Shown here one piece after another: positions 25,360 to 43,597 of a stretch of DNA of 43,597 nt. The DNA is from a virus. Positions within the stretch are counted from its first letter, which is position 1. Each line of letters opens with the position of its first letter. The stretch lies in the IMG/VR virus record IMGVR_UViG_3300011440_000016, positions 1-43,597 of that record, one strand, 5' to 3'. Position numbers and translations under genes: made by a program. The notes beneath the pieces were generated by a model. The model did no database searches and had not been told where the DNA came from. It saw nothing but the letters and a program-made list of their open reading frames with translations.

Positions 25360-25360
25360 G

Positions 25361-27240: not shown

Positions 27241-28801
27241 TTTTCCTCACAAACCATAGATTCTCGTTGCGCTCCATCAAGAAAGAGCCTTTTGGCCCGA
27301 AGCGGGCCTTTACGATTCCAAACTCAATATCACCGTTACGTTCTTCCCACAAGACTATTGCGGTATCCGAATCCTTACCGAATTGGAATGAGCCTGTAAT
27401 GTCGTGAATAGACTTAGGCTTTTTGTTTCCTTCAGTAGCTTTTCTAGTATGGTGAATGAGGATTATTGCGACCCCATATCTACGCCGTATCTTTCGGCAC
27501 CACAACATTGCTCTTCGAGCTTCTGCATTAGCTGATTCCGAAGCATCATCAAATAACTCGGTAAGAGAGTCGATAATCACTACAGTGGGTTGTAATTCAT
27601 CGATGATATCCTCGTATGCAGCTAAATTAGCTCGCTCGTCAATCATGTTCAACTGAGGCATAAAATCTCCCCATTCCTTCTTTTGGTGAGAGATTATGTA
27701 CTTGACTGATCGAACATCCATTTCTAGAGATAGAAGCAAAGGCTTATGTAGCTCTGAGGCTTGATATCCAACCCATTTTTGTTGTCTCTCTAAGAGATAC
27801 ATCAGCTGTAAAGCTAGCTGAGTTTTACCTACACCTGGCGCCGAAGCAATAAGCATTTGACCAGTAGTTGATAACAGATTTGGAAGCACCCACTGTAGGT
27901 CATCAACGTATTTGAGAATTTGCTCTGCGTTGTAGACGATAATAGCAGATTCGGCGGAATGCTTATGGATCGCATAATCCGCAAGCTGCGAAAGACGGGA
28001 CATTTGATCTGTCCGAAGAGCGAATTTTTGGATTCTCTCATCTGCATGTTTCAGCAGAGATACAATCTCCAAATGAGTCAAAGACTCTTCTGCCAATTCG
28101 TTAGCAAGACGTGTTAAGAAGGATGACCTGTAGGGTTCTCCTGGTGCTTCCTTTCTTACCATCCGTAAGACTTTCCCTGGAAGGGAATGGTTCGCTAGGA
28201 TGTCTTCAACCTTTAGAAGCGCTCCAATCTCAATCTCCTGATTAGGAGGCAAAGTTATCTTTGGAACGAAGTCGAAGACTTCTATAGTAAAAGCTTCATT
28301 ACTCGCATGACGTAACTCAACCGGCATTCCTCGTTTGAAATTGAAGGTACCAGGAGGACGTAGTAGTTGTGTTGAATCCCACCCAGACGAATCAGCCTGT
28401 AGGTGATATGTCAGTCGTCGATTTATGTTCTCAACTGTTGGACCTGAGGATGCAGGTATTCGCCAATAACAGTGACAGTGAGTTGAAAGACTGGTTTGTA
28501 CTATGAGAGTAGGTTCGGGGACTTTTCTTCCTGAAAAGTCAATTTCGGTAGCACCATCGAACTCCACCCAGACAGTTTGCACTTTCTTAACAGCGTCTTT
28601 AGTAGCTCTCTTTTCAGAGTAGACCGCTGGAGAAATATAGACTTCCCCGCCGCCAGATTGAACGTGATAAACAAGTTCGTCTTTTTGAGCGGGGTACTTA
28701 AACCAATTGGGATCAAAACTGTTCTCTGTTTTAACTGGAGAATATACATATCCGTCAAGTCCATCAAAGAGAATGTCTAAATAAGTCTCTAGATCATTCA
28801 A
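27083..28801 (-). CDS. Primase-helicase fusion (AEP-like primase plus RecA-fold ATPase), 572 aa
   Basis: Primes and unwinds DNA at the fork. The N-terminal part has VWVEFDGA near 77, SLSTHCHCYWRI near 105 and LLRPPGTFNFK near 143, the strand-motif order of archaeo-eukaryotic-type primases of phages and plasmids. The C-terminal half has Walker A ASAPGVGKTQLAL near 318, Walker B TVVIIDSLTEL near 405 and AIILIHHTRK near 450, as in RepA/DnaB-like replicative helicases of the AAA_25 group. The tail is disordered and overlaps polA. A structured leader precedes it. Confidence 0.82.
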   Translation of the reverse strand: MNDLETYLDILFDGLDGYVYSPVKTENSFDPNWFKYPAQKDELVYHVQSGGGEVYISPAVYSEKRATKDAVKKVQTVWVEFDGATEIDFSGRKVPEPTLIVQTSLSTHCHCYWRIPASSGPTVENINRRLTYHLQADSSGWDSTQLLRPPGTFNFKRGMPVELRHASNEAFTIEVFDFVPKITLPPNQEIEIGALLKVEDILANHSLPGKVLRMVRKEAPGEPYRSSFLTRLANELAEESLTHLEIVSLLKHADERIQKFALRTDQMSRLSQLADYAIHKHSAESAIIVYNAEQILKYVDDLQWVLPNLLSTTGQMLIASAPGVGKTQLALQLMYLLERQQKWVGYQASELHKPLLLSLEMDVRSVKYIISHQKKEWGDFMPQLNMIDERANLAAYEDIIDELQPTVVIIDSLTELFDDASESANAEARRAMLWCRKIRRRYGVAIILIHHTRKATEGNKKPKSIHDITGSFQFGKDSDTAIVLWEERNGDIEFGIVKARFGPKGSFLMERNENLWFVRKNATDEQRAIPADTGGNSEGENLSFRHGDDMVGETRPRIPTQTFRTRNNDFTK

Positions 28802-28817
28802 TTAAACCCCCAGAATA

Positions 28818-28919
28818 GTAAACCCCTCGCCGATTCGCTTTTTCGTGTGTCTATTGACCTTTGTGTTTGTAGTTGGAACCCGACAAACGGCACGATATGC
28901 GGATAGACGAGGGGTTTAC
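28818..28919 (-). promoter_or_regulatory. Structured leader upstream of primase-helicase
   Basis: GTAAACCCCTCG (28818-28829) and CGAGGGGTTTAC (28908-28919) are perfect 12-bp inverted repeats enclosing about 78 nt, which contains a second nested pair, GTCTAT with ATAGAC. The whole gap between the ssDNA-binding gene and the primase start is used. It may be a translational operator, an RNA-processing element or a terminator/antiterminator; no T-run follows. Confidence 0.6.
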
Positions 28920-28930
28920 GTTCTTGTTAG

Positions 28931-29356
28931 TTAGACAGAATACCAGGCATTCGGACCCTGGGGAACCAGTTTCCAGCCGAGTTTTCCGCCTCCCTTATCG
29001 TAGGATTCATGCACCATTGCACAACCTACAGTGTCTCCTATGAATCGATCGACATCAGTAAGGTCGAGAGCATCATCTTCCAGGTCTTCACCTGTCAATG
29101 CTTCAAAGAATGGCTTTGCGCCCCAAGGGTTTTCCTTGTCAACCCAAATCCAATGCTTTACCTTGAACTTGTCGTCTTCATAGTCCTCGATTTTGAAATC
29201 CAACACAACGTTGAATCCCTTGCCCTTTGACTCATCCTTCTTAGGTTGAGCCAACTTGTAATCGGTAATCAGCAAGGTGTAGTTGTCTTCGGGAGGAAGA
29301 TCCTCCTTAGTGAACTCTTTCGCCTTGCCAAAGTCAATTGAAAAATCATCAGACAT
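28931..29356 (-). CDS. DUF669-like ssDNA-binding protein, 141 aa
   Basis: Partner of the Sak4-like ATPase immediately upstream (8-nt overlap). The OB-type layout is visible: EDNYTLLITDYKLAQPKKDES, then GKGFNVVLDFKIEDYEDDKFKVKHWIWVD, and a C-terminal FIGDTVGCAMVHESYDKGGGK. Proteins of this type regularly follow phage AAA_24 recombinases and bind ssDNA. The assignment is by architecture and pairing. Confidence 0.7.
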   Translation of the reverse strand: MSDDFSIDFGKAKEFTKEDLPPEDNYTLLITDYKLAQPKKDESKGKGFNVVLDFKIEDYEDDKFKVKHWIWVDKENPWGAKPFFEALTGEDLEDDALDLTDVDRFIGDTVGCAMVHESYDKGGGKLGWKLVPQGPNAWYSV

Positions 29357-30062
29357 TGCCGAAGATTTCCTTCCATGTTGGGTTCTCGATATAAATATCT
29401 TGAATGTTTAATCTGTTCTTAGCTTCGATGGTTCGTGTTCTATTTAAATAAAGCCGTCGTGTAACTCCTTTTGTTGTAGCCGGTCTGGCGTCCATATACC
29501 CTACGACGTTCACAAGTCTTGTAACTGCTTGTTGTAGCCTGGGAGTAATATCCGGATAAATACCTGTAACCTCAGTTTTCCCTTCGGCGTCCTTTTCCTT
29601 GTCAACTCGTTCATGTCCTATAATGACCACATTAATTGGTGCATTCTGTAGGAAACCAAAAAGATCGGTAAATGCTTGTGTAGCGTACTTGTAATCCTTT
29701 TCCCAGAATTCATGTGCCTGTCTCTTTGAATTCGGTTTAGCTACATCGGCTGCCAATTTTTGGCGCATGAAGTAGTCTAAAGCTGTAGTAACAGAATCAA
29801 AGACGATTGTTTTTGCTTCCTTCCCCCGAACGATCTTTTCTATATCTCGTCGCATTTCGTCAATATCTCTCGGTGTCTTCACCGGAGTATCACAATATTC
29901 TGGCCAATGTTTCAGTGTTTCTGTAGAAGACTCAAAGTCTTCCCAACAAGGCTCTGGAGCATCAGCACAAAATCTAGTTTTACCTGCTCCCGCAGGGCCA
30001 TAGATTAAAGCCTTGATGAAAGAGACTCTTTCTCTAACAGGCTGAAAGCCTACTATTTCCAT
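29349..30062 (-). CDS. Sak4-like RecA-fold recombinase ATPase, 237 aa
   Basis: Phage single-strand annealing/recombination ATPase (AAA_24, Sak4 group). Walker A YGPAGAGKTRF is near residues 21-31, Walker B TIVFDSVTTAL near 84-94, and a polar sensor VVIIGHERVD near 146. The C-terminal part ends in KNRLNIQDIYIENPTWKEIFG. It lies beside a DUF669-like protein and a Cas4-like nuclease, a typical recombination module. The start overlaps the upstream stop as TGATG. Confidence 0.85.
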   Translation of the reverse strand: MEIVGFQPVRERVSFIKALIYGPAGAGKTRFCADAPEPCWEDFESSTETLKHWPEYCDTPVKTPRDIDEMRRDIEKIVRGKEAKTIVFDSVTTALDYFMRQKLAADVAKPNSKRQAHEFWEKDYKYATQAFTDLFGFLQNAPINVVIIGHERVDKEKDAEGKTEVTGIYPDITPRLQQAVTRLVNVVGYMDARPATTKGVTRRLYLNRTRTIEAKNRLNIQDIYIENPTWKEIFGNV

Positions 30063-30157
30063 CAGTCTTCACTATCAGGTTCAGATCGCCTACCGCAACA
30101 TTCTGGACAATTGAACCACGGCTTGAAATCATGCTCTTCACATGCTTTCTCATTCAT
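30062..30157 (-). CDS. Small Cys-rich protein, 31 aa
   Basis: ATGA overlap with the upstream gene and TGATG overlap with the Sak4 gene. It begins MNEKACEEHDFKPWFNCPECC, giving C6, C18, C21 and C22 with a His, and ends with an acidic tail. Looks like a minimal zinc ribbon. Coupled translation is the main support. Confidence 0.55.
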   Translation of the reverse strand: MNEKACEEHDFKPWFNCPECCGRRSEPDSED

Positions 30158-30366
30158 TTTTTGCCATTCTGAATTGTAGTTTCTGTTCCTTTAGCAACAA
30201 AAACTTCATGGGTTGTAAAAGACTCTAATGCTCCCTTAAAGAATTCTTCTTTGAAGTAACCCTCACCTTCCCCTACGATGATTTTCTTCACAGTTCCATC
30301 TTTAAAACGAACGATAAAATGGTCAATTGGTACTTGTATCATTGGAGTCGTGACTGGTAGATTCAC
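30154..30366 (-). CDS. Hypothetical protein, 62-70 aa
   Basis: Start is GTG 30366 or ATG 30342; both lie inside the end of the Cas4-like gene. Core FIVRFKDGTVKKIIVGEGEGYF followed by EEFFKGALESFTTHEVFVA reads as small beta-alpha protein. Function unknown. Neither start has a strong ribosome binding site. Confidence 0.65.
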   Translation of the reverse strand: MNLPVTTPMIQVPIDHFIVRFKDGTVKKIIVGEGEGYFKEEFFKGALESFTTHEVFVAKGTETTIQNGKK

Positions 30367-31261
30367 TGAAAGAGGGGTGCTTTCTCTTAGAGTCCCTGGT
30401 CACGTGAACGAAACTATGGCTGATTACATTACTGGAATCAATCCCTTTGCGTTCCAACATGCAAGGAGTCTCATACGCACAGTACCCACAATGGGATGCG
30501 TAATACGGGATCGGTTCAGACTCTAACATCTTAGCGATCTGCTTACAAATCGTTTTATAAGCGATTTCAAGCTCCCGTTCGGTATAGGCTACCGTTGAGA
30601 AAGTAAATGCCTTATCATAGGTGATGGGGCTTTTCTGGTCTTTTGTATTGATATAGCTAATTTCGGCGACTGCAACTTCCCCAGTTAACATCCAGAGAAT
30701 GACGGCGTAGAATAATAGCTGATATGAATGCCTAGCGTCCGCTTTAGTCCAAGCTCTATCTCCTGTCTTATGATCTCTTAATCTAAGTCGACCCTGAGAA
30801 TCTCGATAAATAAGATCGCAGTATCCAAAGAGAGCTAGAGTTTCAGAGATTTCATGTTCAAGCTCATGCTCAACTTCCATCACCATAATTCCGGCATCAA
30901 TCTTTGGAGACTGCTCTGTTATGTATCGAACCATCGCACGACTGATTACAGCGTATACTGGAATCAGGTGGGAATCTCTAGGAATCTCTAGTCTAGAGAC
31001 ATCATTCTTAATTCTTGCTAGAATTTGTGCACGTGCGAAATCTGAGCCTGGCTCAACACCAGCTTTGTAGTTGTTATATAAAACATGGGCTAATTCGTGA
31101 AAGTAGTTTCCTTTGTCGAAGAAGAATTTTCGTTCCTTACCTACAGGTAGGAGTTCTAAGTTGTATACATAGTTATGCTTCATGGCACACGTTTGAAACG
31201 TGCTAATTCGAGATGGGCTGACTAGTAACTTCGTCAACTGTGGTAAAGAGAGTTCCGTCAT
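30323..31261 (-). CDS. Cas4-like PD-(D/E)XK nuclease with Fe-S cysteines, 312 aa
   Basis: RecB/AddB-type exonuclease processing DNA ends for recombination. ATG 31261 is chosen with AGAGGA 4 nt upstream. SPSRISTFQTCAMKHNY near 15-31 carries the first cysteine (C25), GNYFHELAH near 50 is motif I, LFGYCDLIYRDSQG near 143 the Asp, LRLRDHKTG near 160 the DxK pair, and HSYQLLFYAV near 178 the QxxxY. The C-terminal HCGYCAYETPC supplies three cysteines for an iron-sulfur cluster. No CRISPR array is present, so this is a phage recombination nuclease and not CRISPR adaptation. Confidence 0.85.
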   Translation of the reverse strand: MTELSLPQLTKLLVSPSRISTFQTCAMKHNYVYNLELLPVGKERKFFFDKGNYFHELAHVLYNNYKAGVEPGSDFARAQILARIKNDVSRLEIPRDSHLIPVYAVISRAMVRYITEQSPKIDAGIMVMEVEHELEHEISETLALFGYCDLIYRDSQGRLRLRDHKTGDRAWTKADARHSYQLLFYAVILWMLTGEVAVAEISYINTKDQKSPITYDKAFTFSTVAYTERELEIAYKTICKQIAKMLESEPIPYYASHCGYCAYETPCMLERKGIDSSNVISHSFVHVTRDSKRKHPSFSESTSHDSNDTSTN

Positions 31262-31361
31262 AAATTCCTCTAATAATGTCATCAAGTGTCAGACCTGAGG
31301 ACTGCAAGTCAAGCAGCCATTCCAAAATAGCGGTCTGCTGGTCGGGGGTGAAAGTAATCAT
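31203..31361 (-). CDS. Hypothetical acidic protein, 52 aa
   Basis: ATG at 31361 with AAAGGAGG 4 nt upstream, one of the strongest ribosome binding sites here. Sequence MITFTPDQQTAILEWLLDLQ followed by LTLDDIIRGIYDG. Overlaps the Cas4-like start by 59 nt in another frame. Function unknown. Confidence 0.65.
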   Translation of the reverse strand: MITFTPDQQTAILEWLLDLQSSGLTLDDIIRGIYDGTLFTTVDEVTSQPISN

Positions 31362-31486
31362 TATCCCTCCTTTCTAGTTACTGCTGCCTTTCTGCATATT
31401 GCACAGGTTATAAATCCAGGTGTAGGGGGTCTACGTTTACACAGTGGGCAGATATTCAGTGTATCCGCAGTTATCAACCGTGTCAA
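31361..31486 (-). CDS. Minimal zinc-ribbon protein, 41 aa
   Basis: The TTG start at 31486 overlaps the exonuclease TGA (TTGA) with GAGGGG upstream, and its stop overlaps the next ATG (TAATG). NICPLCKRRPPTPG and FITCAICRKA give two CxxC pairs, a compact zinc ribbon. Role unknown. Support comes from coupled overlaps and the clean Cys pattern. Confidence 0.65.
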   Translation of the reverse strand: MTRLITADTLNICPLCKRRPPTPGFITCAICRKAAVTRKEG

Positions 31487-32058
31487 ATCCCCTCGCCAAA
31501 GATATGCTCGAAGACTTCCTTAGCCTTACGAGCATCTCCAATCGCAGTATGTTTATCCTTACCCGCTGATGCAATATCCATTGCTTTAAAAAGCGAGTCT
31601 GATTTGATTGGAAGATCAAGTTCGTGGAATCCCTTATTCTTATCATTAGCCCCTGCTAGAAAGCCAAGCGAAAGGCATTCGACATCCATCAAATGGTAAT
31701 GCCAAGGATGGTTATGGTTTTCTATCTGATTTCTACCATCACCATAATGTCTCCACAATGCATGAAGACGCTCAGAATCGAACCACGGACAAGCCCCGAC
31801 TAAATGGCGACCCTGTAGGAGTTCCTCTAGTTTTCTAGCTGTCTCAAAAGGTGCTAATGCTGTTTCTGGATCGTATTCAGTTCCAAATCGGGTGTTCTCT
31901 TTAACCCATTCATCGACATGAAGAGAGTCTACCCAGTTTTGCCAACGATACTCTTCTTCGTCTATGATGATTGCAATGTCCCAGATACTATGAAACTCAG
32001 GATGAAGTCCTGTAGTTTCGGTATCAATGAATGCTACTTGGCTGCGTTGATAACTCAT
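31483..32058 (-). CDS. DnaQ-like DEDDh exonuclease, 191 aa
   Basis: 3'-5' exonuclease of the proofreading type. VAFIDTETTGLHPE near residues 8-21 gives the first two acids (D12, E14), DVECLSLGF near 125 the third and HTAIGDARKA near 171-180 the His and Asp of ExoIIIepsilon. ATG follows GGAGGG. PolA here also has an exonuclease domain, so this enzyme may serve in end resection or nucleotide scavenging. Confidence 0.82.
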   Translation of the reverse strand: MSYQRSQVAFIDTETTGLHPEFHSIWDIAIIIDEEEYRWQNWVDSLHVDEWVKENTRFGTEYDPETALAPFETARKLEELLQGRHLVGACPWFDSERLHALWRHYGDGRNQIENHNHPWHYHLMDVECLSLGFLAGANDKNKGFHELDLPIKSDSLFKAMDIASAGKDKHTAIGDARKAKEVFEHIFGEGI

Positions 32059-32207
32059 TTGCCCTCCGTTAATTCTACATAAAGTTCATTTTCAGATGTT
32101 CTACGAAGTCTAAGACTATCTATGTCTCCATGTTCTTGAAGAACTTCTAGATTACCGTTTTGAGCTAGAACTCTACCTAATTTTTCTATTAGTTCTAAGA
32201 TTTTCAC
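32055..32207 (-). CDS. Hypothetical protein, 50 aa
   Basis: GTG start at 32207 overlaps the preceding TGA; the stop overlaps the exonuclease ATG as ATGA. Begins MKILELIEKLGRVLAQNG and continues LEVLQEHGDIDSLRLRR. Small helical-beta protein of unknown role. Confidence 0.65.
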   Translation of the reverse strand: MKILELIEKLGRVLAQNGNLEVLQEHGDIDSLRLRRTSENELYVELTEGK

Positions 32208-32452
32208 ATTTTTCTCAATTCACTTCTGATATGTTTTACTAAACCTTTATAGATGAATTCTATAGCTTCATCTAAAGATTCTCCATTACGGAAATATTCG
32301 TCTGAAAGATAAATTTCAGACTGACACGAAAAGGCTAAGGATAGGTGAGTGCTATCAGGAACATCATCAGTACGACATGTATGCCAATTTCCTGGGTGTT
32401 TCTTTTTAGCTATTGCAAGAACCTGCTCCGGTGTAGGTCGTTTCTTAATCAT
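32204..32452 (-). CDS. Hypothetical protein, 82 aa
   Basis: ATG 32452 (MIKKRPTPEQ) is preferred because it lies at the end of the preceding gene (8-nt overlap); an upstream ATG at 32494 would overlap more. It contains VLAIAKKKHPGNWHTC, SLAFSCQSEIYLSD and a C-terminal helix. The family is unknown. Confidence 0.68.
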   Translation of the reverse strand: MIKKRPTPEQVLAIAKKKHPGNWHTCRTDDVPDSTHLSLAFSCQSEIYLSDEYFRNGESLDEAIEFIYKGLVKHIRSELRKM

Positions 32453-32867
32453 CCCACATAGCCCAATACATCCATAGGTTAGAACCTGCCCCATATATAG
32501 CTAAAGAATCTACTCTAATTCTATTACCGTTTTGATAACAAGCTACCACAGTAATAGTCCCACCGCCGGACGGACCGCAAGTAATATTACGATCAACAAG
32601 GGTTTCATCTTCTTCGGCAACGACGAATACAATTTCATTGGTACCACCAGTATTGTTAATAGCAAGATTTCCTGCTGTGTCAACATAGATAGAGGTAACG
32701 CCAACGCAATGATGAAAATAATCATCGAGAACTCTCGGTACAACTTTAGTTCCAGCCCCATTTAAAGTATCGAACCGAACGACACAACCTCTTTCTATGA
32801 TAGGATTAGTGTCAGATTCTGGAACAATCATTACTGTTCCAGCAAGCAAGAGATGAGCTAGTTTCAT
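32445..32867 (-). CDS. Hypothetical secreted or surface-type protein, 140 aa
   Basis: ATG with AAGG 5 nt upstream. A hydrophobic N-terminus (MKLAHLLLAGTVMIVPE) may be a short signal or anchor, but it lacks a clear cleavage site. The rest is beta-rich (CVVRFDTLNGAGTKVV; IYVDTAGNLAINNTG; GGTITVVACYQNGNRIRVDS), like a virion decoration or carbohydrate-binding domain. It follows the threonine-rich secreted protein gene. Confidence 0.68.
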   Translation of the reverse strand: MKLAHLLLAGTVMIVPESDTNPIIERGCVVRFDTLNGAGTKVVPRVLDDYFHHCVGVTSIYVDTAGNLAINNTGGTNEIVFVVAEEDETLVDRNITCGPSGGGTITVVACYQNGNRIRVDSLAIYGAGSNLWMYWAMWDD

Positions 32868-32889
32868 GGTTACCTTAATACAGGAGAGA

Positions 32890-32950
32890 CTCGGTATCTT
32901 CTGGGGGTGAAAATACCGAGCCTACAATCCTGTCCTCCGGCGGGGGAGGA
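32890..32950 (-). terminator. Two hairpins downstream of the threonine-rich gene
   Basis: CTCGGTAT (32890-32897) pairs with ATACCGAG (32913-32920), and TCCTCC (32933-32938) with GGAGGA (32945-32950). They occupy the gap after the stop of the 32953-33597 gene. TTTT follows the second hairpin only on the + strand. A terminator or processing role for the leftward transcript is possible but not proven. Confidence 0.45.
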
Positions 32951-32952
32951 TT

Positions 32953-33597
32953 TTATCGAGTAGCCGGTAAGCAATTTGTGCAAACAGGCTCTTCGGGAAT
33001 TGGTGGAGGAATTGTTACCACAATAGTAGTTGAAGGCAACGTTGGAGGCGCTGTAGTTACTACTGTAGTATTAGGGGGCTCCGATGTAGTAGTAGGATTT
33101 AATGTAGTGCTCGTACTTGTCGTTGCCGTACTTGTCGTTGCCGGAGTAGTTGTTGTCGAAGTCGGAATTGTTGTCGTCTCTACGATTGTAGTTGTCGTTG
33201 TTGGATCTACAATTGTTGTCGTTGTTATAACTACGGTCGTCGTGGTTGTTTCCTCTACTGTTACAGTAGTCGTCGTTGAAAGATCGGTTGTTGTGGTTGT
33301 GGTTGTTTCGGAAGTGCATCTTCCATTTCCAGTATTAGTATTCGTAACTCCGTTTGACCACGTTCCAAAGACTGTCAATGAAGTTCCACTGTAGCCTACA
33401 GTGGTTGATCCGCCTGGTCCAATTGAACCAGAATGACCTTGATCCGTAGTAAACGTCATTGACTTGTCAGATTCAGAGTTTACGATTAGCCAAACCCCTG
33501 GCGATTGACAAGATACGGTAGTATGGTGAGCTTCAACACTTTGAACGCTTACTAAGATAGATCCAGCCAATAAAGCCGGGATAAGGATCTTCTTCAT
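32953..33597 (-). CDS. Secreted threonine-rich stalk protein, 214 aa
   Basis: Sec signal peptide: MKKILIPALLAGSILVSVQS followed by VEA and HH, with predicted cleavage after A24 (VEA). A small beta domain follows (about 25-95: VSCQSPGVWLIVNSES; GSIGPGGSTTVGYSG), then about 100 residues of TTTT/TTVV/TTP stalk like surface proteins of Acidimicrobiia, then VCTNCLPATR at the very end. LPATR resembles a sortase LPxT site, but no hydrophobic anchor follows. Signal peptides are unusual on phage early-operon proteins, so it may alter the host surface. ATG has AAAGGA upstream. Confidence 0.75.
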   Translation of the reverse strand: MKKILIPALLAGSILVSVQSVEAHHTTVSCQSPGVWLIVNSESDKSMTFTTDQGHSGSIGPGGSTTVGYSGTSLTVFGTWSNGVTNTNTGNGRCTSETTTTTTTDLSTTTTVTVEETTTTTVVITTTTIVDPTTTTTIVETTTIPTSTTTTPATTSTATTSTSTTLNPTTTSEPPNTTVVTTAPPTLPSTTIVVTIPPPIPEEPVCTNCLPATR

Positions 33598-33637
33598 TTT
33601 TTCCTTTCAATTAATTACCCCGTCGGTAATCAATAGT

Positions 33638-33715
33638 GGACGAGAGAGGGAATTGAACCCCCATCTTCGGATGTATTTTCAATCCGATACATTACCAGGA
33701 AATGCTATCTCGCCC
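33638..33715 (-). tRNA. tRNA-like gene with atypical anticodon arm (GAA, Phe-like?)
   Basis: Minus-strand cloverleaf: acceptor GGCGAGA/TCTCGTC (one G-U; can extend by G-C to 8 bp), TA, D stem GCAT/ATGT with loop TTCCTGGTA, T stem GGGGG/CCCTC with loop TTCAATT. The anticodon arm is odd: CGGAT/ATCCG (6 bp with the flanking T-A) encloses TGAAAATAC, a 9-nt loop instead of 7. If U33 is the first T, the anticodon would be GAA (Phe). No CCA is encoded. It could be a degenerate tRNA, a frameshift-type tRNA or a tRNA-like end of the adjacent RNA. Confidence 0.65.
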
Positions 33716-33719
33716 CAAA

Positions 33720-34010
33720 TGCTAGTAGGTATTGTATCCCCATATCTGATTTCCTACTAGCAGATCTATCGGGTTTAACTAGCTGAGGACTAGGATTAGG
33801 TACCCGATAAGAATTCGTGGATGGGAAGCACAAGGAGAAACTCCCCACCCACTCAGGATGTGTCGCCTACATCCCGATATTAACGGAGCCTATAGATTGT
33901 CCTAGGCTCTACAGACTCCGGCGAGAATATTTTCCCGCTTTTCAAGGCGATCAACCCTCGACGCTATGATTTGTAGCTAAAGACCAGTGGTCCACACATT
34001 TTGTCATAGC
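33720..34010 (-). ncRNA. Candidate structured non-coding RNA, about 300 nt, directly upstream of tRNA-like gene
   Basis: No ORF. Seven consecutive stem-loops fill the gap: 33720-33729/33753-33762 (10 bp), 33768-33774/33802-33808 (7), 33817-33825/33844-33852 (9), 33856-33861/33869-33874 (6), 33886-33892/33903-33909 (7), 33921-33926/33933-33938 (6), 33963-33969/34004-34010 (7). Two of them are fully paired only when read on the minus strand (a G-U wobble there is A-C on the plus strand), supporting minus transcription into the tRNA. It is shorter than GOLLD or ROOL RNAs, large ornate phage RNAs that also occur near tRNAs. A distinct class is possible. Confidence 0.6.
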
Positions 34011-34025
34011 CTTATGTGAAGAGAT

Positions 34026-34865
34026 TTACTCTTCGTCTTCGTCTTCATCCTCATCGTCGTCAACATCTTCCTCTGCTGCATCTTCTGCACCGGAAGGATT
34101 AGTCGGGACTTCATTAGGATCAGCCTCAACTGTGCCTCTTACCGCCACAACAGTCTTGCCGTTAATTTCGACAGAGAACTTCTCCGGAGGATTGGTCGTA
34201 TCAAGCTTCTTGTCTCCGACCATTTGCTCCTTCAAAGCCTTAGTGAAATCTGCCTGAAGTGCGAATCCAAGAGTTGCTGCAACTCCCTTGACGCTATTAG
34301 CATCTCCCTCTTGATCGACGCCATCAATTGACCAATCGTAGAAAGAAAGTGCACGCTTTCCACGCTTGCCAACGGCCCCACGCCTCTTCGGAAGCGGCCA
34401 TTCGTTGCCCTCTTCAAACTCACCGAAAGTTCCCGCCATTTGAACAGTGAGCTTGATTTGACTTGCAAGCTCTGAACGCTCTGTTGCAAGAGCCTTCTTC
34501 TGCTCATCAGTCAAATTGTCTTCGGTCTTTGGAGCCGACTCAAAAGCTGCGGTGATAAGCTTTTCCGCATCTTCCTTAAAGGCTCCCGAAAGCGCACGAA
34601 TAAGACCGTAGAAAACTCCGGTGCGCTCTTCATCAGTTTCGAACTTTCTCATCTCTTCAATGATGTTCTCTGAAACCGGCTTCCATTCAGCTTCGGAAGC
34701 TACCACTAGTTCATTTGTGATCTTCTTTTTTCCTGCCGATTCTGAACCAGCATCAAGCTTCTCATCAATTTCGGCGATCGCATTCCACATCTTTTTGTAG
34801 AATGCCCTGACTTGTGAAGCGTCTTCCACTTCTGTGTAACGATTCTCAATGAGTGTGTCCGTCAT
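34026..34865 (-). CDS. Unknown protein with acidic C-terminal tail, 279 aa
   Basis: ATG 34865 is chosen with AAAGGA 8 nt upstream; a longer ORF to 34913 would overlap the promoter. Mostly helical and charged (SQVRAFYKKMWNAIAEIDEKL; RTGVFYGLIRALSGAF), with a basic patch (PLPKRRGAVGKRGKR) followed by ALSFYDWSIDGV. It ends EEDVDDDEDEDEDEE. Such tails occur in SSBs and DNA mimics, but no OB fold is recognised. A promoter directly upstream and clean codons suggest high expression. A hairpin (GAAGAG/CTCTTC) spans its stop. Confidence 0.8.
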   Translation of the reverse strand: MTDTLIENRYTEVEDASQVRAFYKKMWNAIAEIDEKLDAGSESAGKKKITNELVVASEAEWKPVSENIIEEMRKFETDEERTGVFYGLIRALSGAFKEDAEKLITAAFESAPKTEDNLTDEQKKALATERSELASQIKLTVQMAGTFGEFEEGNEWPLPKRRGAVGKRGKRALSFYDWSIDGVDQEGDANSVKGVAATLGFALQADFTKALKEQMVGDKKLDTTNPPEKFSVEINGKTVVAVRGTVEADPNEVPTNPSGAEDAAEEDVDDDEDEDEDEE

Positions 34866-34912
34866 GTTTTCTTTCCTTTTTGTAGGTGAATATGCCTCTC
34901 GGCCACCTCTCA

Positions 34913-34941
34913 CTAGTAGTCCTCCTAGACTATCGTGTCAA
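34913..34941 (-). promoter_or_regulatory. Leftward promoter for the 34026-34865 gene
   Basis: Minus strand: TTGACA (34941-34936), 17-nt spacer, TACTAG (34918-34913), giving a leader of about 40 nt with AAAGGA. Upstream, GCTAGGCAG...AGCTAT is shared with the promoter at 42500-42529. Confidence 0.55.
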
Positions 34942-34963
34942 GAGATTTCTGCTAGGCAGCGAG

Positions 34964-35236
34964 CTATGGTGTAGACGACAGTGTGACCCCAGTTCCTTCA
35001 AGTAATTTATCTATAGAAGGATCAGATTGATTATCTACTCCGAAATGAGCTAATATGATAACTCCCACAGCTAGTGCTAAAGCCATTCCACAATATAGTA
35101 GAATCTCTAGACCACTTCGCTCTACCTTGCCAGTTCCATTACAATCTGGACAAGGAAGCACTGATGCTAAGTATCGAGCATGCTCTGTAGCACCAAATTT
35201 CCACATTCCTGTTCCTTCACAATCTTTACATTTCAT
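34964..35236 (-). CDS. DnaJ-type zinc-finger protein with one TM segment, 90 aa
   Basis: Two CxxCxGxG motifs (CKDCEGTG near residue 3 and CPDCNGTG near 29), as in the Cys-rich region of DnaJ, are followed by a transmembrane helix (ILLYCGMALALAVGVIILAHF, about 45-65) and a short tail. It probably binds one zinc and tethers to the membrane. Good start after GAAAGAAA. No J domain, so no chaperone function can be assumed. Confidence 0.75.
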   Translation of the reverse strand: MKCKDCEGTGMWKFGATEHARYLASVLPCPDCNGTGKVERSGLEILLYCGMALALAVGVIILAHFGVDNQSDPSIDKLLEGTGVTLSSTP

Positions 35237-35246
35237 TTTCTTTCTC

Positions 35247-35609
35247 CTACCAATAATTTACTGTTGATTGTGCTACGCCTGGAATTGTCTGTTTATCATC
35301 TTTCCTATGACATGGAGGACATTTCCAGTTGAGTTTCTCTACAATGTTGATCGTAAAATCTTTGGATTCGTGATCAGCTTGTAATTGCGACTTAAGAACA
35401 CGGTTCTCTTCTGGCCATATTTCGCTGAAGAACTTAGGAGCATCCTTCGGAGGATGTATCGTTGTTTTATTACATTCAAAGCGAGATACCTTATCAGGCA
35501 ATAGATAACCTACACATCTGTAGGGAACTCTAGCTTCGTACAACTCTCTTCTAGCCTTCCTTCTTCCAGTGGAACGCCAATCAAGAATCTTTGATTCATC
35601 CTTTGTCAT
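35247..35609 (-). CDS. HNH-like endonuclease, 120 aa
   Basis: Cys/His layout of HNH nucleases: YRCVGYLLPDKVSRFEC, then LQADHESKDFTINIVEKL and WKCPPCHRKDDKQT, giving Cys...DH...N...CxxCHxxK. The N-terminus is basic (DWRSTGRRKARRELYEAR). Free-standing HNH genes in phages act in packaging or as homing nicks; here it lies far from terminase. Start overlaps the 24-aa gene (TAATG). Confidence 0.65.
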   Translation of the reverse strand: MTKDESKILDWRSTGRRKARRELYEARVPYRCVGYLLPDKVSRFECNKTTIHPPKDAPKFFSEIWPEENRVLKSQLQADHESKDFTINIVEKLNWKCPPCHRKDDKQTIPGVAQSTVNYW

Positions 35610-35683
35610 TATAGGCTCTTTGCTAGTACAAATATAGCTATTACTAGAAAAATTCCTAGTACATTCATTACTAAATCAAACAT
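35609..35683 (-). CDS. Tiny TM protein, 24 aa
   Basis: ATG with GGAGGG 5 nt upstream; the stop overlaps the next ATG (TAATG). MFDLVMNVLGIFLVIAIFVL is a single hydrophobic helix, ending AKSL. The translation signals are strong, so it is probably a real membrane microprotein. Confidence 0.55.
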   Translation of the reverse strand: MFDLVMNVLGIFLVIAIFVLAKSL

Positions 35684-35694
35684 TGAATCCCTCC

Positions 35695-35790
35695 TTAGGG
35701 TCTTGGATCTGTAAAATCAGTCATTAGCATAGCAATCACCACTACTACTATAGTGATTCCGATTGCCCATGCTAAAATATCAACTAACAT
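35695..35790 (-). CDS. Tiny TM protein, 31 aa
   Basis: ATG at 35790 with GGGAGG 8 nt upstream and overlap with the preceding stop. A helix (ILAWAIGITIVVVVIAMLM) is followed by a short polar end (TDFTDPRP). A second membrane microprotein in tandem with the 24-aa one. Confidence 0.58.
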   Translation of the reverse strand: MLVDILAWAIGITIVVVVIAMLMTDFTDPRP

Positions 35791-35981
35791 TTTCTATACC
35801 TCCCTACAGGGTGCCCACCAAGACGTCTCCGCATTTCTAGTTCCCTAGGAATAGGGGGACCAAGGATTGGATTATCACGAAAATAGATAGCTTCTTCTCT
35901 AGAATAACCAAGATTAATTAACATGTCTACATAATAAACATTAAAGAGAAGATCGTTAATGGTATTTAAATCAATTTCCAT
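35784..35981 (-). CDS. Hypothetical protein, 65 aa
   Basis: ATG 35981 (MEIDLNTIND) gives a 10-nt overlap with the upstream gene; a longer start at 36026 has its GGAGG directly against the ATG and is less likely. It contains LLFNVYYVDMLINLGYSREEA, a UBA-like helical look, and RRLGGHPVGRYRKC. The function is unknown. Confidence 0.65.
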   Translation of the reverse strand: MEIDLNTINDLLFNVYYVDMLINLGYSREEAIYFRDNPILGPPIPRELEMRRRLGGHPVGRYRKC

Positions 35982-36363
35982 ACTTGAACTTTCTGTAGAA
36001 ACTGATCTTAAATGGTTCGGGGGCATCCTCCGAAGGACGCCATCCTGTTACATGACACTGTAAAGGAAGAGCACATGAAAATCCTCTTGCATGACCATGT
36101 TTGATATATAGTACATTATCTTCATCTAGATATAACCAGAAGTCATCTTCATCTAAATAATGGTCTACTGTGTATGTATAGTCAGCCCACTTGAAACCTA
36201 CAGGGGCTAGAATTTCGTAGAGCTTTTTGAAAGTATTTTGTTGCATAGGGGGTGGAACATAGGGCTTATATGGTGCCTCATTATGTGGTCTAGTCTTCTT
36301 AGAAGGAGCAGACTTTCGTAAAGCTCTAGCATTAGCTAGTATTTCTTCTATGCTTCTATTCAT
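35971..36363 (-). CDS. Hypothetical protein, 130 aa
   Basis: ATG 36363 is supported by the ATGA overlap with the upstream gene. A Lys/Pro-rich N-terminus (RKSAPSKKTRPHNEAPYKP) precedes a beta-rich domain (YTYTVDHYLDEDDFWLYLD; VLYIKHGHARGFSCALPLQ). No catalytic motif recognised. Confidence 0.72.
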   Translation of the reverse strand: MNRSIEEILANARALRKSAPSKKTRPHNEAPYKPYVPPPMQQNTFKKLYEILAPVGFKWADYTYTVDHYLDEDDFWLYLDEDNVLYIKHGHARGFSCALPLQCHVTGWRPSEDAPEPFKISFYRKFKYGN

Positions 36364-36524
36364 GCGTACCACCATCCCCCTGCTCTAAGTTCGACAGCTT
36401 TATACGCCAATGCAACACTAATAGGAACGAACTCTACTAGAATTGCATCAGCTTGTTTATGCGATTTTTCTTCACTATCCCCGCTGATCTGATCTAGTTT
36501 TAAAACTGCTTCGTATTCAGTCAT
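36360..36524 (-). CDS. Hypothetical protein, 54 aa
   Basis: ATG 36524 lies in an overlap with the upstream gene and has GGAGG about 10 nt upstream. MTEYEAVLKLDQISGDSEEK is followed by AILVEFVPISVALAYKAVEL and GGWWYA. Function unknown. Confidence 0.62.
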   Translation of the reverse strand: MTEYEAVLKLDQISGDSEEKSHKQADAILVEFVPISVALAYKAVELRAGGWWYA

Positions 36525-36756
36525 AGTCTTCTAGTTCCTCCTTGAAAGAATGGACAGTAATTTCGTCCATCAGTTGTTTTCTGATCTTGATTTTCTCTTG
36601 TGGAGAGAAGTGGGCGAAAAGCTTGGTGATTACATATGCGACGTCGTCAACCAGTACTTCTAGATCGGAGTTCTCAAAGACAGCTATTAGTTTCTCGAGG
36701 TCGTAACCTTCGCTTAGTGAAAGAAGGGCTTCCACATTCTTGTAGTGATCTGCCAT
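36517..36756 (-). CDS. Hypothetical helical protein, 79 aa
   Basis: TAATG overlap with the upstream gene. Three amphipathic helices (YKNVEALLSLSEGY; LEKLIAVFENSDLEVLVDD; KIKIRKQLMDEITVH). Looks well folded; unknown family. Confidence 0.72.
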   Translation of the reverse strand: MADHYKNVEALLSLSEGYDLEKLIAVFENSDLEVLVDDVAYVITKLFAHFSPQEKIKIRKQLMDEITVHSFKEELEDYD

Positions 36757-36902
36757 TAGTGCTTCGCAGTTTTGTAGTGATTTTCAACGAATTTGACGAT
36801 TAGAGACAGGTTACTCCTGAATGTGATTGAATTGATTGTAGTTCCACAAACACTACAGACAACATGCACCCCTGTAGGTCGTATCTCTATGATTGCTTCC
36901 AT
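36756..36902 (-). CDS. Zinc-finger-like protein, 48 aa
   Basis: ATG 36902 and stop 36756 overlap both neighbours (TAATG). RPTGVHVVCSVCG is followed by FVENHYKTAKH, a CxxC...HxxxxxH arrangement similar to a single zinc finger. It includes one copy of the octamer CCTGTAGG. Confidence 0.62.
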   Translation of the reverse strand: MEAIIEIRPTGVHVVCSVCGTTINSITFRSNLSLIVKFVENHYKTAKH

Positions 36903-37084
36903 TATCTTGCATTCCTTTCTATTTCTATAAGTTGCTGTTCGATCAACAACATCTTTACGTAGCTTAAAGCGTTTTTATACGAACAGAAGGATTCCAATTT
37001 TCTAGCAGATTTATTTTCTGTTACTATCCAATGATCGTATCTTCCACTTTTCATACAAATACGACAACAAAAAATTGAAAACAT
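36902..37084 (-). CDS. Hypothetical Cys-rich protein, 60 aa
   Basis: Begins MFSIFCCRICMKSGRYDHWI with C6, C7 and C10, then C33 in LESFCSY, followed by helices (NALSYVKMLLIEQQLIEIE). The stop overlaps the next ATG. Unknown role. Confidence 0.6.
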   Translation of the reverse strand: MFSIFCCRICMKSGRYDHWIVTENKSARKLESFCSYKNALSYVKMLLIEQQLIEIERNAR

Positions 37085-37087
37085 TAC

Positions 37088-37267
37088 TTAGCTCATCCCT
37101 AACTCTTGTCTATGATCTAACTCTCTGAGCAAATCTCCATAATTACAAAAGCAATAATGCAGCCCTCCAAATTTCCATCCATATTGTTGAGTCCCGCTCT
37201 TAGGTCCAACTAGAACACCTAGCTTCTCTCGAAACTTTCCTGTGTTATTACATTTATGACATTTCAT
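37088..37267 (-). CDS. Zinc-ribbon-like protein, 59 aa
   Basis: ATG 37267 forms ATGA with the helicase stop and has AAGGGG upstream. MKCHKCNNTGKFREK and HYCFCNYGDL give CxxC...CxC. The GNTGKF part resembles DnaJ-type fingers. Function unknown. Confidence 0.68.
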   Translation of the reverse strand: MKCHKCNNTGKFREKLGVLVGPKSGTQQYGWKFGGLHYCFCNYGDLLRELDHRQELGMS

Positions 37268-39099
37268 AAGAGCCCCTTTAGGTATTTCTTCCATTCATCC
37301 TTTGGACGAAGCTCGGATGATTCAGTGAAGGCTTGAAACTGCAACGCCTTATCGTCACAAAGTTGTTGCACAAAGAAGTCAACGCTATTTTCGCACTTCA
37401 AATCGTAGATGAATACTGGCTCATTGATCTTTCGAGCATCGCCAGAAGGGCGAACTGCTCTCTTGTAGAATTGATCGTTGCGCATGTTATTCCACCACTT
37501 ATCAAAGTAGATAACTGCTCTTGCACCACCAGGCCATTCGGTCGGATCTTTGTGAAGGTTAAGTCCCTCTCCCATTGCTAGGTTAACGCAGAGAACGTCA
37601 ATCTTCTTCTGCTGGAATCCAACCTCGTATTTATCGAGATCCTTTCCATGTGCAGATGAGATTACTTCACAGACCAATCCTTCTACCTGACAACGGAAGG
37701 CAAATTCTTCCATTGGCTCATTAAAGTTGCAGCCAATGATTACCTGATCCTGTGTTTGCAGAACGATATCCATTGCCTCATCCAACTTGGAGGAATCCCT
37801 ACAGTCCAGCTTGAATTCTTCAATGCCTCCATCTTCTGTCTCAATTCGGAAGTTGGCTACTGGTAGAACGTTGATCTGCCTAAGGCGCATAAGCTGAGCA
37901 ATAATAGCCGCAGCAGGAAGCGCCTTCTCTTGCTTATCAAGCCAGATAAAGAAACGATCACGCATCTGAGCATAATATTCTCCCTGCTGAGGATTATGGG
38001 GAATGATCTTTTCAATCCACTGGATTGGGGGAAGTTGTAGCCCGACTTCGGAAGCAGTTCTACGAATTAACCTGCCCTTAAGAATGTCCTTCATCAGCTT
38101 CTCGCTTTGAAGAGTGAACTTCATCTGTCCGCTCATGTCTTTGAAGGCGTTGAACTGACGAGCGAATTTCTTTGCGTCTGGAAAAGCATTGGGATCGAAT
38201 AGGTGGAGATATGACCAGATTTCCTCCATCTTATTGACAAGAGGAGTTCCGGTCAACATCATCTGGAAACCTACAGAAAGGCCTTTGATTGTCTCCCAAA
38301 TAGCAGTAGGGCCAGAGCTATTAGCTCCGCCCTTTAACTTATGGACTTCGTCCATTACTAGGAAGTCCCAGTGGATTTTGTTTCCGAACTTCTTGATTGT
38401 CTCGTAGTTAGTCAAGACACAAATACCGCCCTCGGCAGCGATCTCGAAGACAATATCTCCGGCAGCTACAGATCCACCTACAGGGAAGACTTTAAGTTCT
38501 GGAAACCATCTCTTAGCTTCACGGAAAGTTCCGCCTGTCTTCACAATTGACAGCTTAGTAAGCCAGAGGATTGTTGCTTCCTTACCAAATTTCCGGCGAT
38601 GAAGTTCCATGCAAATCTTTAGGGCAAGAAGAGTTTCGTAGGTTTTACCAAGCGCCATTTCATTGGCGTTCATGATTCCAGAGGAGCCCTGTAGGTATTG
38701 ATGAACTATTCTGACTACGTCCTCGATCTGATAGTCACGAGCTTTTGTCCACGCTTCGTAACCGTCACAAATCTCCTTGATGATAAGCACCGTATCATCA
38801 AGCATCTTGTTTTTAGCTTCTTCCTCTTTTTGGCGACGAAGAGCATTAAGCCTTAGCATATCCTCTTCATAAGCAGCTCTGGCTTTACGGAGGACTTCAT
38901 AATGTTTGTCATGCATTGTGTTCAGCTGATTATTCAATCGCTGAATATGAGCACGAATTTCATTATGCTTCTGATAGTGAGAGACTTCAATCTCTTTAAT
39001 TTTGTCACCGTATGTTTCGGTAGTTTCAAGAAGTTTGCGAATCTCTTCGTCTATATTGAAGAATTCGGGCTCTTTCCCGAACCGTGCATTAATCTCCAT
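37264..39099 (-). CDS. SNF2/SF2-type DNA helicase, 611 aa
   Basis: ATP-dependent DNA translocase of the phage SNF2-like type. The N-terminal about 100 residues are coiled coil (NEIRAHIQRLNNQLNTMHDK). Motif I MNANEMALGKTYETL near 145 matches the SNF2 form, then motif II FLVMDEVHKLKGG near 245 and motif III MLTGTPLVNKMEEIW near 278. The C-terminal lobe has VNLAMGEGLNLH near 505 and QFYKRAVRPSGD near 550, as the QxxGRxxR-type motif. Probably acts in replication restart or recombination. AAGGA lies upstream. Confidence 0.86.
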   Translation of the reverse strand: MEINARFGKEPEFFNIDEEIRKLLETTETYGDKIKEIEVSHYQKHNEIRAHIQRLNNQLNTMHDKHYEVLRKARAAYEEDMLRLNALRRQKEEEAKNKMLDDTVLIIKEICDGYEAWTKARDYQIEDVVRIVHQYLQGSSGIMNANEMALGKTYETLLALKICMELHRRKFGKEATILWLTKLSIVKTGGTFREAKRWFPELKVFPVGGSVAAGDIVFEIAAEGGICVLTNYETIKKFGNKIHWDFLVMDEVHKLKGGANSSGPTAIWETIKGLSVGFQMMLTGTPLVNKMEEIWSYLHLFDPNAFPDAKKFARQFNAFKDMSGQMKFTLQSEKLMKDILKGRLIRRTASEVGLQLPPIQWIEKIIPHNPQQGEYYAQMRDRFFIWLDKQEKALPAAAIIAQLMRLRQINVLPVANFRIETEDGGIEEFKLDCRDSSKLDEAMDIVLQTQDQVIIGCNFNEPMEEFAFRCQVEGLVCEVISSAHGKDLDKYEVGFQQKKIDVLCVNLAMGEGLNLHKDPTEWPGGARAVIYFDKWWNNMRNDQFYKRAVRPSGDARKINEPVFIYDLKCENSVDFFVQQLCDDKALQFQAFTESSELRPKDEWKKYLKGLL

Positions 39100-39256
39100 C
39101 GTCGGTCCTTATTTGAATCTTTTCAAAGAATATAGCTGATGGGATACTAATTGTAAGCAGTTCGCCCCTTGCGGCTACTTGAACAATTACTTCCCTACCA
39201 TCATGGACAATGACCACTCTTTGTTTATTTTTACCGTAATAATTGAGTAGACTCAT
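39089..39256 (-). CDS. Hypothetical protein, 55 aa
   Basis: ATGA overlap with the upstream gene; the end overlaps the helicase start. MSLLNYYGKNKQRVVIVHDG, then VIVQVAARGELLTISIPSA and a charged end. Small beta protein; no family recognised. Confidence 0.65.
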   Translation of the reverse strand: MSLLNYYGKNKQRVVIVHDGREVIVQVAARGELLTISIPSAIFFEKIQIRTDDGD

Positions 39257-39432
39257 GACTTAGGCCTTTCGATGCAAGTTGTCATGCCCCAAACGTGATT
39301 GCCATTTTTATCAAGTACGAAGACCTCGATCGGATCAGTATTAGGACACCGATAAGTACTCCCAGAAAGGCAGCCGTCACGAACGAATTCGTAATCGTGA
39401 CAAGCGCCATGAATGATGTCCCCCTTATTCAT
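39253..39432 (-). CDS. Hypothetical Cys-rich protein, 59 aa
   Basis: ATG 39432 lies within the end of the previous gene and the stop overlaps the next start as ATGA. Contains HGACHDYEFVRDGCLSG, YRCPNTDPIEVFVLDKNGN and MTTCIERP, giving four cysteines in a zinc-binding-like spacing. Function unknown. Confidence 0.68.
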   Translation of the reverse strand: MNKGDIIHGACHDYEFVRDGCLSGSTYRCPNTDPIEVFVLDKNGNHVWGMTTCIERPKS

Positions 39433-39607
39433 AATCGTTCACTTCCTCATAATGAATAAAGTAAGAAAGACTAGGCACAATTACTGCAAGTCTCTCTCCT
39501 TTAGAGTCGAGAATTTCAATGTGCTCATATTGATCAACGACGTCATGAATAGCATCGTTAAGCTTGTCCACGCTATTGAGAGTTGCCCAGTAAACTTGCT
39601 TATTCAT
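39425..39607 (-). CDS. Hypothetical protein, 60 aa
   Basis: Start ATG 39607 (MNKQVYWATLNSVD) overlaps the upstream stop. It continues KLNDAIHDVVDQYEHIEILD and GERLAVIVPSLSYFIHYEE. No motif. A longer ORF upstream is antiframe overlap and unlikely. Confidence 0.68.
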   Translation of the reverse strand: MNKQVYWATLNSVDKLNDAIHDVVDQYEHIEILDSKGERLAVIVPSLSYFIHYEEVNDYE

Positions 39608-39830
39608 CGTCTTCTTCTTTGAACATCGTATCCCAGCAGTCGGGATGAATTCCAGTCTTAAGCATTTCTCTAGTATCTGCACTGACTTCGGGGAAAGCGT
39701 TCTGGATTAATGTCCCATTTTTCCAAGCATCGTAATGATCCTTGACAACTTCAAGCTCGGATTTGTTCCTGCAATAAATGCAAGTAGGTGTTTGGATCAG
39801 TATTAATTCCCGACCGTATGGATCTTTCAT
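39600..39830 (-). CDS. Conserved small actinophage-type protein, 76 aa
   Basis: One CxxC pair (PTCIYCRNKSELEV), then a helix and IQNAFPEVSADTREMLKTG followed by IHPDCWDTMF. The xIQNAFPxxSADxREMLxTG...CWDxMF pattern recurs in small proteins of many actinobacteriophages; no function is established. ATG overlaps the upstream stop region. Confidence 0.75.
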   Translation of the reverse strand: MKDPYGRELILIQTPTCIYCRNKSELEVVKDHYDAWKNGTLIQNAFPEVSADTREMLKTGIHPDCWDTMFKEEDDE

Positions 39831-40111
39831 TACTTTACTCCTTGTTTCATTATCATGAGGACATAGGATCTGGATAGTCCATATCTCTTTGCAATAGAGG
39901 CAGGATTTTCAAAGGCTCTCATTCGGCGACGAATATCAGTCTTATCTTCTTCTGAGAGCTTATGGGTGGACTTAGCTCCGAAAGTTCGCTGTCCTTTTAG
40001 AGAAGCTTCTTTCTTTGCAGCTTTCACTTTATAGGCTCTTTCAAGACCAGTTAATCCAGTATGATGAAAACCATCCATATCATAATTGGGATGCATGTGA
40101 TCTGGATTCAT
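39830..40111 (-). CDS. HTH DNA-binding protein, 93 aa
   Basis: The C-terminal half is a helix-turn-helix: SEEDKTDIRRRMRAFENPASI followed by AKRYGLSRSYVLMIMKQG, like homeodomain-type HTH of resolvases. The N-terminus is His-rich (DHMHPNYDMDGFHHTG). Probably a small phage DNA-binding regulator. ATGA overlap with the upstream gene. Confidence 0.7.
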   Translation of the reverse strand: MNPDHMHPNYDMDGFHHTGLTGLERAYKVKAAKKEASLKGQRTFGAKSTHKLSEEDKTDIRRRMRAFENPASIAKRYGLSRSYVLMIMKQGVK

Positions 40112-41162: not shown

Positions 41163-41311
41163 TCTGTTTCTCCTTGTTGTAGAATGTTGCGCTGTCCGAT
41201 CGTGTTCATTTCAATCAGTTCCGAATAGCGACTCTGCCAATCGGCTGCTGATAATTCGCCCTCAGCTTCTAGTTGTTGAAAGCGAAGATCAGTATGTAAA
41301 GGTATGCCCAT
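41159..41311 (-). CDS. Hypothetical protein, 50 aa
   Basis: The end overlaps the next ATG (ATGA). MGIPLHTDLRFQQLEAEGEL, ADWQSRYSELIEMN and a polar end. No strong ribosome binding site, but both ends couple to neighbours. Function unknown. Confidence 0.62.
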   Translation of the reverse strand: MGIPLHTDLRFQQLEAEGELSAADWQSRYSELIEMNTIGQRNILQQGETE

Positions 41312-43511: not shown

Positions 43512-43597
43512 TTCATTTTCCTCCTTGTTTGTGCGATGCCGATTAGCATCCCCGCCTACACAATCCGCCATCGAATTGTGTAGGGTCGGGATACCTA
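43475..43597. repeat. Right copy of 123-bp terminal direct repeat
   Basis: Exactly matches 1-123. It holds the 5' part of the 64-aa gene, its AAGGAGG and the hairpin described at 74-118. See the left copy for interpretation. Confidence 0.95.

Follow-up and report, generated by a model that had tools for sequence, protein, structure and literature searches.

What purpose is served by a long stretch between two phage genes that has few open reading frames, folds into a row of hairpins, and ends in an element resembling a tRNA? Such a stretch lies inside the leftward operon (24117-42492, minus strand) of the 43,597-nucleotide virus DNA analyzed here, which as a whole is called the window. The record carries an exact 123-base direct terminal repeat (1-123 and 43475-43597) and, given this repeat, may be a complete genome. 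Its leftward half encodes replication-type proteins, including DNA polymerase A, a Sak4-like ATPase, and a PD-(D/E)XK nuclease. A gene for a WhiB-type regulator is found at 23909-24313 (PF02467, E 4e-16), and because of this gene the host of the phage is probably an actinobacterium.

Structure of the 428-nt gap

The gap covers 33598-34025 and separates the stop codon of the upstream gene from the start of the downstream gene (Table 1). A preliminary description of this DNA had pointed to a large ORF-free gap in the leftward operon, and at a cut-off of 50 aa it is indeed the largest on the operon strand, followed by one of 174 nt. When the cut-off is raised to 60 aa, further operon gaps of 338 and 325 nt appear, and these are filled by smaller ORFs. 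The only frames of at least 40 aa within the 428 nt are one of 47 aa on the minus strand, which has no Shine-Dalgarno sequence by a simple motif scan, and one of 50 aa on the plus strand.

On the minus strand, which is the sense strand of the operon, the order of structures is eight stems, a cloverleaf, and a 10-bp hairpin. The eight non-overlapping stems were found by a greedy search of 33715-34025, measure 6-13 bp, and total 74 bp, compared to 35.6 +/- 6.9 bp in dinucleotide shuffles; none of 300 shuffles reaches 74 bp. The plus strand of the same interval yields five stems and 41 bp. Seven stems of 6-10 bp had been proposed previously, a count that captured their consecutive arrangement and fell short in both number and size. 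Likewise, a minus-strand bias had been argued from G-U pairs in two stems; because six of the eight contain such pairs, the bias is stronger than was described. The fold energy z-score of the gap is -6.43 for the sense strand versus -2.49 for the antisense strand, and the corresponding values for 33600-34110 are -5.72 and -2.65. Among 724 segments of 240 nt (20 shuffles each), the one at 33721 on the minus strand ranks fourth by z. A second strongly structured gap is present on the minus strand at 28802-28930 (z about -6.8, 20 shuffles), where the arms GTAAACCCCTCG and CGAGGGGTTTAC are complementary.

Table 1. Features in and around the gap, with stems numbered in the direction of operon transcription.
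Feature	Positions	Strand	Description
Upstream ORF	34026-34913	-	Acidic C-terminal tail; stop codon opens the gap
Stem 1	33963-34010	-	7 bp (34010-34004 / 33969-33963) and inner 5-bp stem; mean pair probability 0.99
Stem 2	33942-33961	-	6 bp, one G-U; mean pair probability 0.95
Stem 3	33921-33938	-	7 bp, one G-U; mean pair probability 0.94
Stem 4	33884-33920	-	13 bp, two G-U; mean pair probability 0.99
Stem 5	33853-33877	-	9-10 bp, one G-U; mean pair probability 0.97
Stem 6	33817-33852	-	13 bp, three G-U; mean pair probability 1.00
Stem 7	33766-33810	-	9 bp, one G-U, and inner 5-bp stem; pair probabilities 0.87 and 0.95
Stem 8	33720-33762	-	10 bp; mean pair probability 0.98
tRNA-like element	33638-33715	-	8-bp acceptor, D stem, anticodon stem, T stem with TTCAATT loop
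Hairpin directly 3' of tRNA-like element	33610-33634	-	10 bp; mean pair probability 0.96
Downstream ORF	32953-33597	-	Thr-rich; signal-like N-terminus by eye; Shine-Dalgarno GAAAGGA

With replication genes nearby, the hairpins could conceivably act as DNA, for example by being extruded from one strand at a replication or single-strand initiation site. This reading is extremely improbable, as the G-U pairs of the six stems would be lost in the complementary strand, the sense strand folds better than the antisense strand, and the GC skew changes sign near 24000 rather than at the gap.

A terminator scan gives two weak minus-strand sites, at 33579 (inside the downstream gene) and 33846 (within stem 6), and the two strands of 33400-34300 together hold three terminator-like sites versus 0.6 +/- 0.9 expected. 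No minus-strand promoter-like site is found in the same interval. The hairpins are not repeats of one another. A repeat-based RNA antitoxin was considered and rejected, because the region holds just one weak 13-nt repeat pair.

A tRNA-like element between two genes

The element that follows the hairpins has much in common with true tRNAs. It matches the tRNA family RF00005 of Rfam over 33638-33714 (minus strand) with 49.4 bits, well above the cut-off of 29, and its acceptor stem is 8 bp, so that the element extends to 33715. A free fold recovers each of its four stems (acceptor, D, anticodon, and T), giving a full cloverleaf body with the D and T loops of the family. The earlier proposal is supported to the extent that a structured RNA, specific to the sense strand of the operon, is joined here to a tRNA-like element.

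The element also departs from the family in its 8-bp acceptor and its anticodon loop. In the RF00005 alignment the loop measures 11 nt (with a 5-bp stem) or 9 nt (with a 6-bp stem), rather than the 7 nt of a decoding loop. Because the loop is too long, the element presumably cannot decode normally; judged by loop length, it resembles t-elements in being a probably non-decoding tRNA-like structure between genes. ARAGORN calls no tRNA gene here, and no CCA is encoded. A tmRNA was rejected, since neither the ARAGORN tmRNA search nor Rfam gives a match to its split tRNA-like domain.

Read by eye, the anticodon loop is UUGAAAA followed by four extra bases. UUGAAAA is the loop of a tRNA-Phe, and a 7-nt loop of this sequence plus UACA would account for what is seen in the window. 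This raises the main rival to any functional reading of the locus as a unit, namely that a decaying tRNA-Phe-like gene with four extra anticodon-loop bases lies next to a separate row of terminator or mRNA-stabilizing hairpins and shares no function with it. Consistent with this rival, further gaps in the window are also structured; against it, none of the four stems has been lost from the window element. REP elements are 3'-end stabilizing hairpins of bacterial operons, and the hairpins of the window resemble them in being intercistronic and in lying behind a stop codon. They differ in that they are not mutual repeats and are followed by a tRNA-like element.

The protein encoded upstream combines its acidic tail with the motif RRGA-GKRG-RALS, and its AlphaFold model is mainly helical (pLDDT 79, pTM 0.45). 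A role as a single-strand binding protein was rejected, given this helical model and the lack of a PDB fold match to the model or a Pfam or PHROG match to the protein at E<=0.001. The start codon of the downstream ORF lies 40 nt after the tRNA-like element.

The same position in related phages

Relatives of the locus had to be sought through its neighbors. A blastn search with the gap region against 50,697 phage records gave no match, and a search with the upstream protein alone yielded no relatives. They were reached by way of the DNA polymerase, a profile of the upstream protein, an HNH-like neighbor protein, and the GenBank podovirus MW202795.1. The HNH-like protein has no match in genome contigs, and a single locus from a viral scan with the helicase (L266) was left out because its match reaches the locus end. 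Of 20 loci scanned with the profile, 19 contain the upstream protein. No close relative of the window was found by these routes.

Across 18 related records, the gap that follows the upstream gene is mostly noncoding and rich in hairpins. Sense-strand z-scores of -3 or lower were obtained for 14 of 16 gaps, including that of the window, versus 2 of 16 length-matched pieces of the upstream gene, and the sense fold is stronger than the antisense fold in 12 of the 16 (one-sided P 0.038). This folding comparison left out L050, L051, and L052, and L055 has no match to the upstream gene. The sequence itself is not retained, as blastn of the window's stem sequences against relatives with the same neighboring genes gives nothing better than E 0.1. 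An unconserved sequence and an absence of covariation had each been named in the preliminary description as arguments against a functional RNA; the former is what is observed at the level of sequence, whereas compensatory changes do occur within pairs of close relatives. Across the whole interval in L043 and L016 (92% identity), 86 pairs are unchanged, 1 has changed on one side, 5 have changed on both sides, and 0 are broken. L051 and L056 differ by 16 double changes, in an alignment that is less certain (65% identity). In a loop behind the upstream gene, these last two share CCUUUCUAA, which resembles the 16S rRNA 3' tail of actinobacteria, and a possible interpretation of this sequence likeness is ribosome mimicry.

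An RNA of GOLLD or ROOL kind, new or truncated, had been suggested for the window. The broader form of this idea is a new class of stable noncoding RNA, 300-400 nt in length, that would receive its tRNA-like 3' end from RNase P and act in trans as a cage, scaffold, or regulator, as has been proposed for GOLLD and ROOL. There is a eukaryotic precedent in mascRNA, the tRNA-like 3' end of the long noncoding RNA MALAT1 that is released by RNase P; there, too, a structured RNA directly precedes a non-decoding tRNA-like element, whereas the RNA of the window lies inside a phage operon. The window RNA shares with GOLLD and ROOL its phage origin, dense structure, strand bias, and the tRNA-type element beside it, and the latter RNAs lie near phage tRNA islands, according to PMC12286853. 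By the same account, these ornate RNAs are recognized through a conserved, covarying architecture. The window instead presents about 310 nt of simple local hairpins in a row, with neither conserved sequence nor common stems in relatives at the same site. GOLLD, ROOL, and HEARO were rejected because the Rfam covariance models, including that of tmRNA, give no match up to E 10 in 33550-34100. Together with the lack of a promoter-like site noted above, these observations render a free-standing noncoding RNA improbable.

A search of 20 whole records with RF00005 gave 18 matches above the cut-off in 11 records. A custom scan added two more, one in L053 and one in L016, the latter a copy of the L043 element. 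By-eye reading of the sequences gives seven distinct elements with abnormal anticodon arms, counting that of the window; the others lie downstream of the upstream gene in L043/L016, L048/L049, L052, L053, and L054, and about 1 kb beyond it in L047. Five relatives' records hold such elements above the RF00005 cut-off (29.3-38.6 bits), and the L016 and L053 copies score below it. The L047 element scored 37.3 bits in the whole-record search and is absent from a later Rfam listing. The arms are broken differently in most lineages, as would be expected of decay: the loop has 8 nt in L049 and L052, 13 nt in L054, and 21 nt in L043, L047 has no recognizable anticodon arm, and L053 carries a degenerate form.

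Nevertheless, decay alone appears to be insufficient. The elements of L043 and L016 differ at 5 of 90 positions, and four of these differences are paired partners in the T stem, forming two double compensatory changes; the fifth falls within the expanded anticodon loop. In simulations, two or more double changes arise with P 6e-5. Because pairing in the T stem has been restored by compensation, the body of this element appears to be under selection, even though decoding looks impossible. This comparison of two sequences provides the strongest argument here against simple decay. The intactness of the elements in general is a biased observation, because the scan sought intact acceptor and T stems, and only the compensation in L043/L016 is exempt from this bias.

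Anticodon nucleases are an established phage defense, and an altered anticodon loop on a retained tRNA body might thus betray a decoy, a tRNA mimic that during infection occupies tRNA-targeting defense or toxin nucleases or tRNA-binding enzymes. Bait for an anticodon nuclease should retain the natural anticodon loop, however, and the loops vary among lineages. A decoy also leaves unexplained both the hairpins and the start codons that abut many of these elements (see below), and it is considered very improbable.

Hairpins and tRNA-like elements need not form a single device, because 11 of 19 gaps (window included, the duplicate L048 excluded) hold no tRNA-like element, and seven of the 19 (L044, L045, L050, and L057-L060) hold no tRNA either. 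The recurrence of hairpin rows without tRNAs, as in L044, L050, and L057-L060, again favors the reading as unrelated neighbors, which nonetheless must contend with the compensation described above and with the start codons described below. On balance, this main rival is judged unlikely, with a weight that is far from negligible.

A separate structure came to light in these records. It is a compact H-type pseudoknot composed of a variable first stem, a loop CUGAGCAA, a linker UUAAAC, and a second stem GAGCA/UGCUC. It lies behind the upstream gene in L045, L046, L047, and L051, and is also found in L201-L265 and at 601-629 of L267 (Arthrobacter phage Amigo), where it is located between a single-strand binding protein gene and tRNA-Gly, which is followed by tRNA-Val; the record of Amigo names Arthrobacter ATCC 21022 as host. 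A pattern scan matched 65 viral stretches. The pseudoknot frequently follows a stop codon at a distance of about 10 nt, and a sizeable share of the matches precede a tRNA gene by 3-11 nt. Of 26 distinct matches, three lack the first stem; in the other 23 this stem measures 3 bp or more and its triplets compensate one another (P about 6e-24 by chance). Rfam gives no match to it at E<=1 in the 6 loci tested, and it may represent a 3' UTR element that is widespread and so far undescribed. A relaxed scan finds none in the window. In L232 and L247, the letters that follow the pseudoknot look hammerhead-like to the eye; this candidate was dropped because Rfam, at its gathering score, gives no match.

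Start codons and message ends

In the phage group as a whole, start codons lie close behind tRNAs. Abutment was defined as the ATG of an ORF of >50 aa located 1-3 nt behind the discriminator base. It is seen for 10 of the 19 tRNAs and tRNA-like elements of the group (near-duplicates L048 and L016 omitted), compared to 13 of 252 other CCA-less viral tRNAs, a difference with a Fisher P of 1.4e-7 among elements that are not independent. The control tRNAs come from 80 viral loci, a sample selected with a pattern that combines a T-loop and a downstream ATG. Abutment occurs with six of 12 ordinary tRNAs (Leu of L054, Arg and Lys of L053 and L040, and Arg of L046) and with four of the seven tRNA-like elements (L047, L049, L052, and L054), and the latter frequency speaks against decaying genes beside unrelated hairpins. 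In L052, a partly degenerate acceptor leaves the choice of the discriminator base uncertain. The tRNA-like elements of the window, L043, and L053 do not abut a start codon, nor do the tRNAs for Arg in L047, Leu in L053, L040, L051, and L056, and Ile in L040.

The tail at abutting starts reads mostly A-C-T-ATG (L040, L046, L047, L049, L052, L053, and L054). The identical Lys tRNAs of L040 and L053 each abut the ATG of a different gene. Shine-Dalgarno sequences at the abutting starts are not significantly weaker than at 28 control starts (P 0.10). In L054 the tail of the tRNA-like element, ACTATGGATTAC, is the start of a gene whose product begins with MDYK. The tail of the window element reads ACTATTGATTAC, and this resemblance weakly suggests that it may be a relic of such a start; a search of the window for the MDYK gene itself gave nothing better than E 0.64.

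The best explanation for the stretch, with a probability that falls a little short of even, is that it serves as an RNA-processing cassette internal to the operon and equipped with a tRNA mimic that is dead for decoding, rather than as a free-standing ornate RNA. Transcription of the leftward operon would proceed through the hairpin array and the tRNA-like element, whose acceptor, T arm, and D arm are the parts that tRNA-processing enzymes read. Host RNase P would then cut at the 5' end of the element, and RNase Z or another 3' endonuclease would cut at its 3' end. The message of the upstream gene would gain a new 3' end capped by tandem hairpins, the last of which, stem 8, ends 4 nt before the predicted cut, and the message of the downstream gene would acquire a fixed 5' end. 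In relatives, where the start codon often follows the element by 1-3 nt, the result would be a leaderless mRNA, and actinobacteria are efficient at translating such messages. The cuts, the end protection, and the leaderless translation are all steps that we infer. A helix of at least 5 bp that ends within 5 nt of the element precedes 17 of 20 elements, which lends the design just moderate support because the same is true of 202 of 400 random positions.

Certain features of actinobacteria fit this scheme. Leaderless mRNAs are common in these bacteria (PMC3848588, PMC4681348), most tRNA genes of S. coelicolor lack an encoded CCA (PMC4681348), and 3' cuts of tRNAs have been observed between the two Cs of CCA (PMC3848588, PMC4681348, PMC4633059). 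Therefore, a tRNA body within an operon should be excised. Leaderless translation would not be needed in the window, because the next start codon is 40 nt away and has its own Shine-Dalgarno sequence. For the same reason, just the first half of the design, the capping of the upstream message, fits the window directly.

A wider proposal is that the phage group uses both tRNAs and decoding-dead mimics as operon punctuation, yielding capped upstream and leaderless downstream messages, with the window as a variant that carries a long hairpin array. This proposal is tentative, possible rather than probable. If true, it would amount to a phage counterpart of the tRNA punctuation system of mitochondria (PMC8003010, citing Ojala 1981), where t-elements serve as processing signals in plants. 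The likeness lies in tRNAs or tRNA-like elements between genes, in the non-decoding nature of some of them, and in start codons directly after tRNAs in the phage group. The differences are that a phage of bacteria is involved, in which cutting is predicted, and that the window has its start codon at a distance, a Shine-Dalgarno sequence, and a preceding hairpin array. A search of the open-access literature found no report of tRNA-like elements as message punctuation in phages, which is not proof of absence.

Codon supply and resistance to tRNA-cutting defenses are the usual explanations for phage tRNAs. A non-decoding tRNA-like element that is kept by compensation, and start codons that lie 1-3 nt behind tRNAs, suggest another role, which is the setting of mRNA ends. 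If this is true, it would help to explain odd phage tRNAs and would link phages with mitochondrial gene expression.
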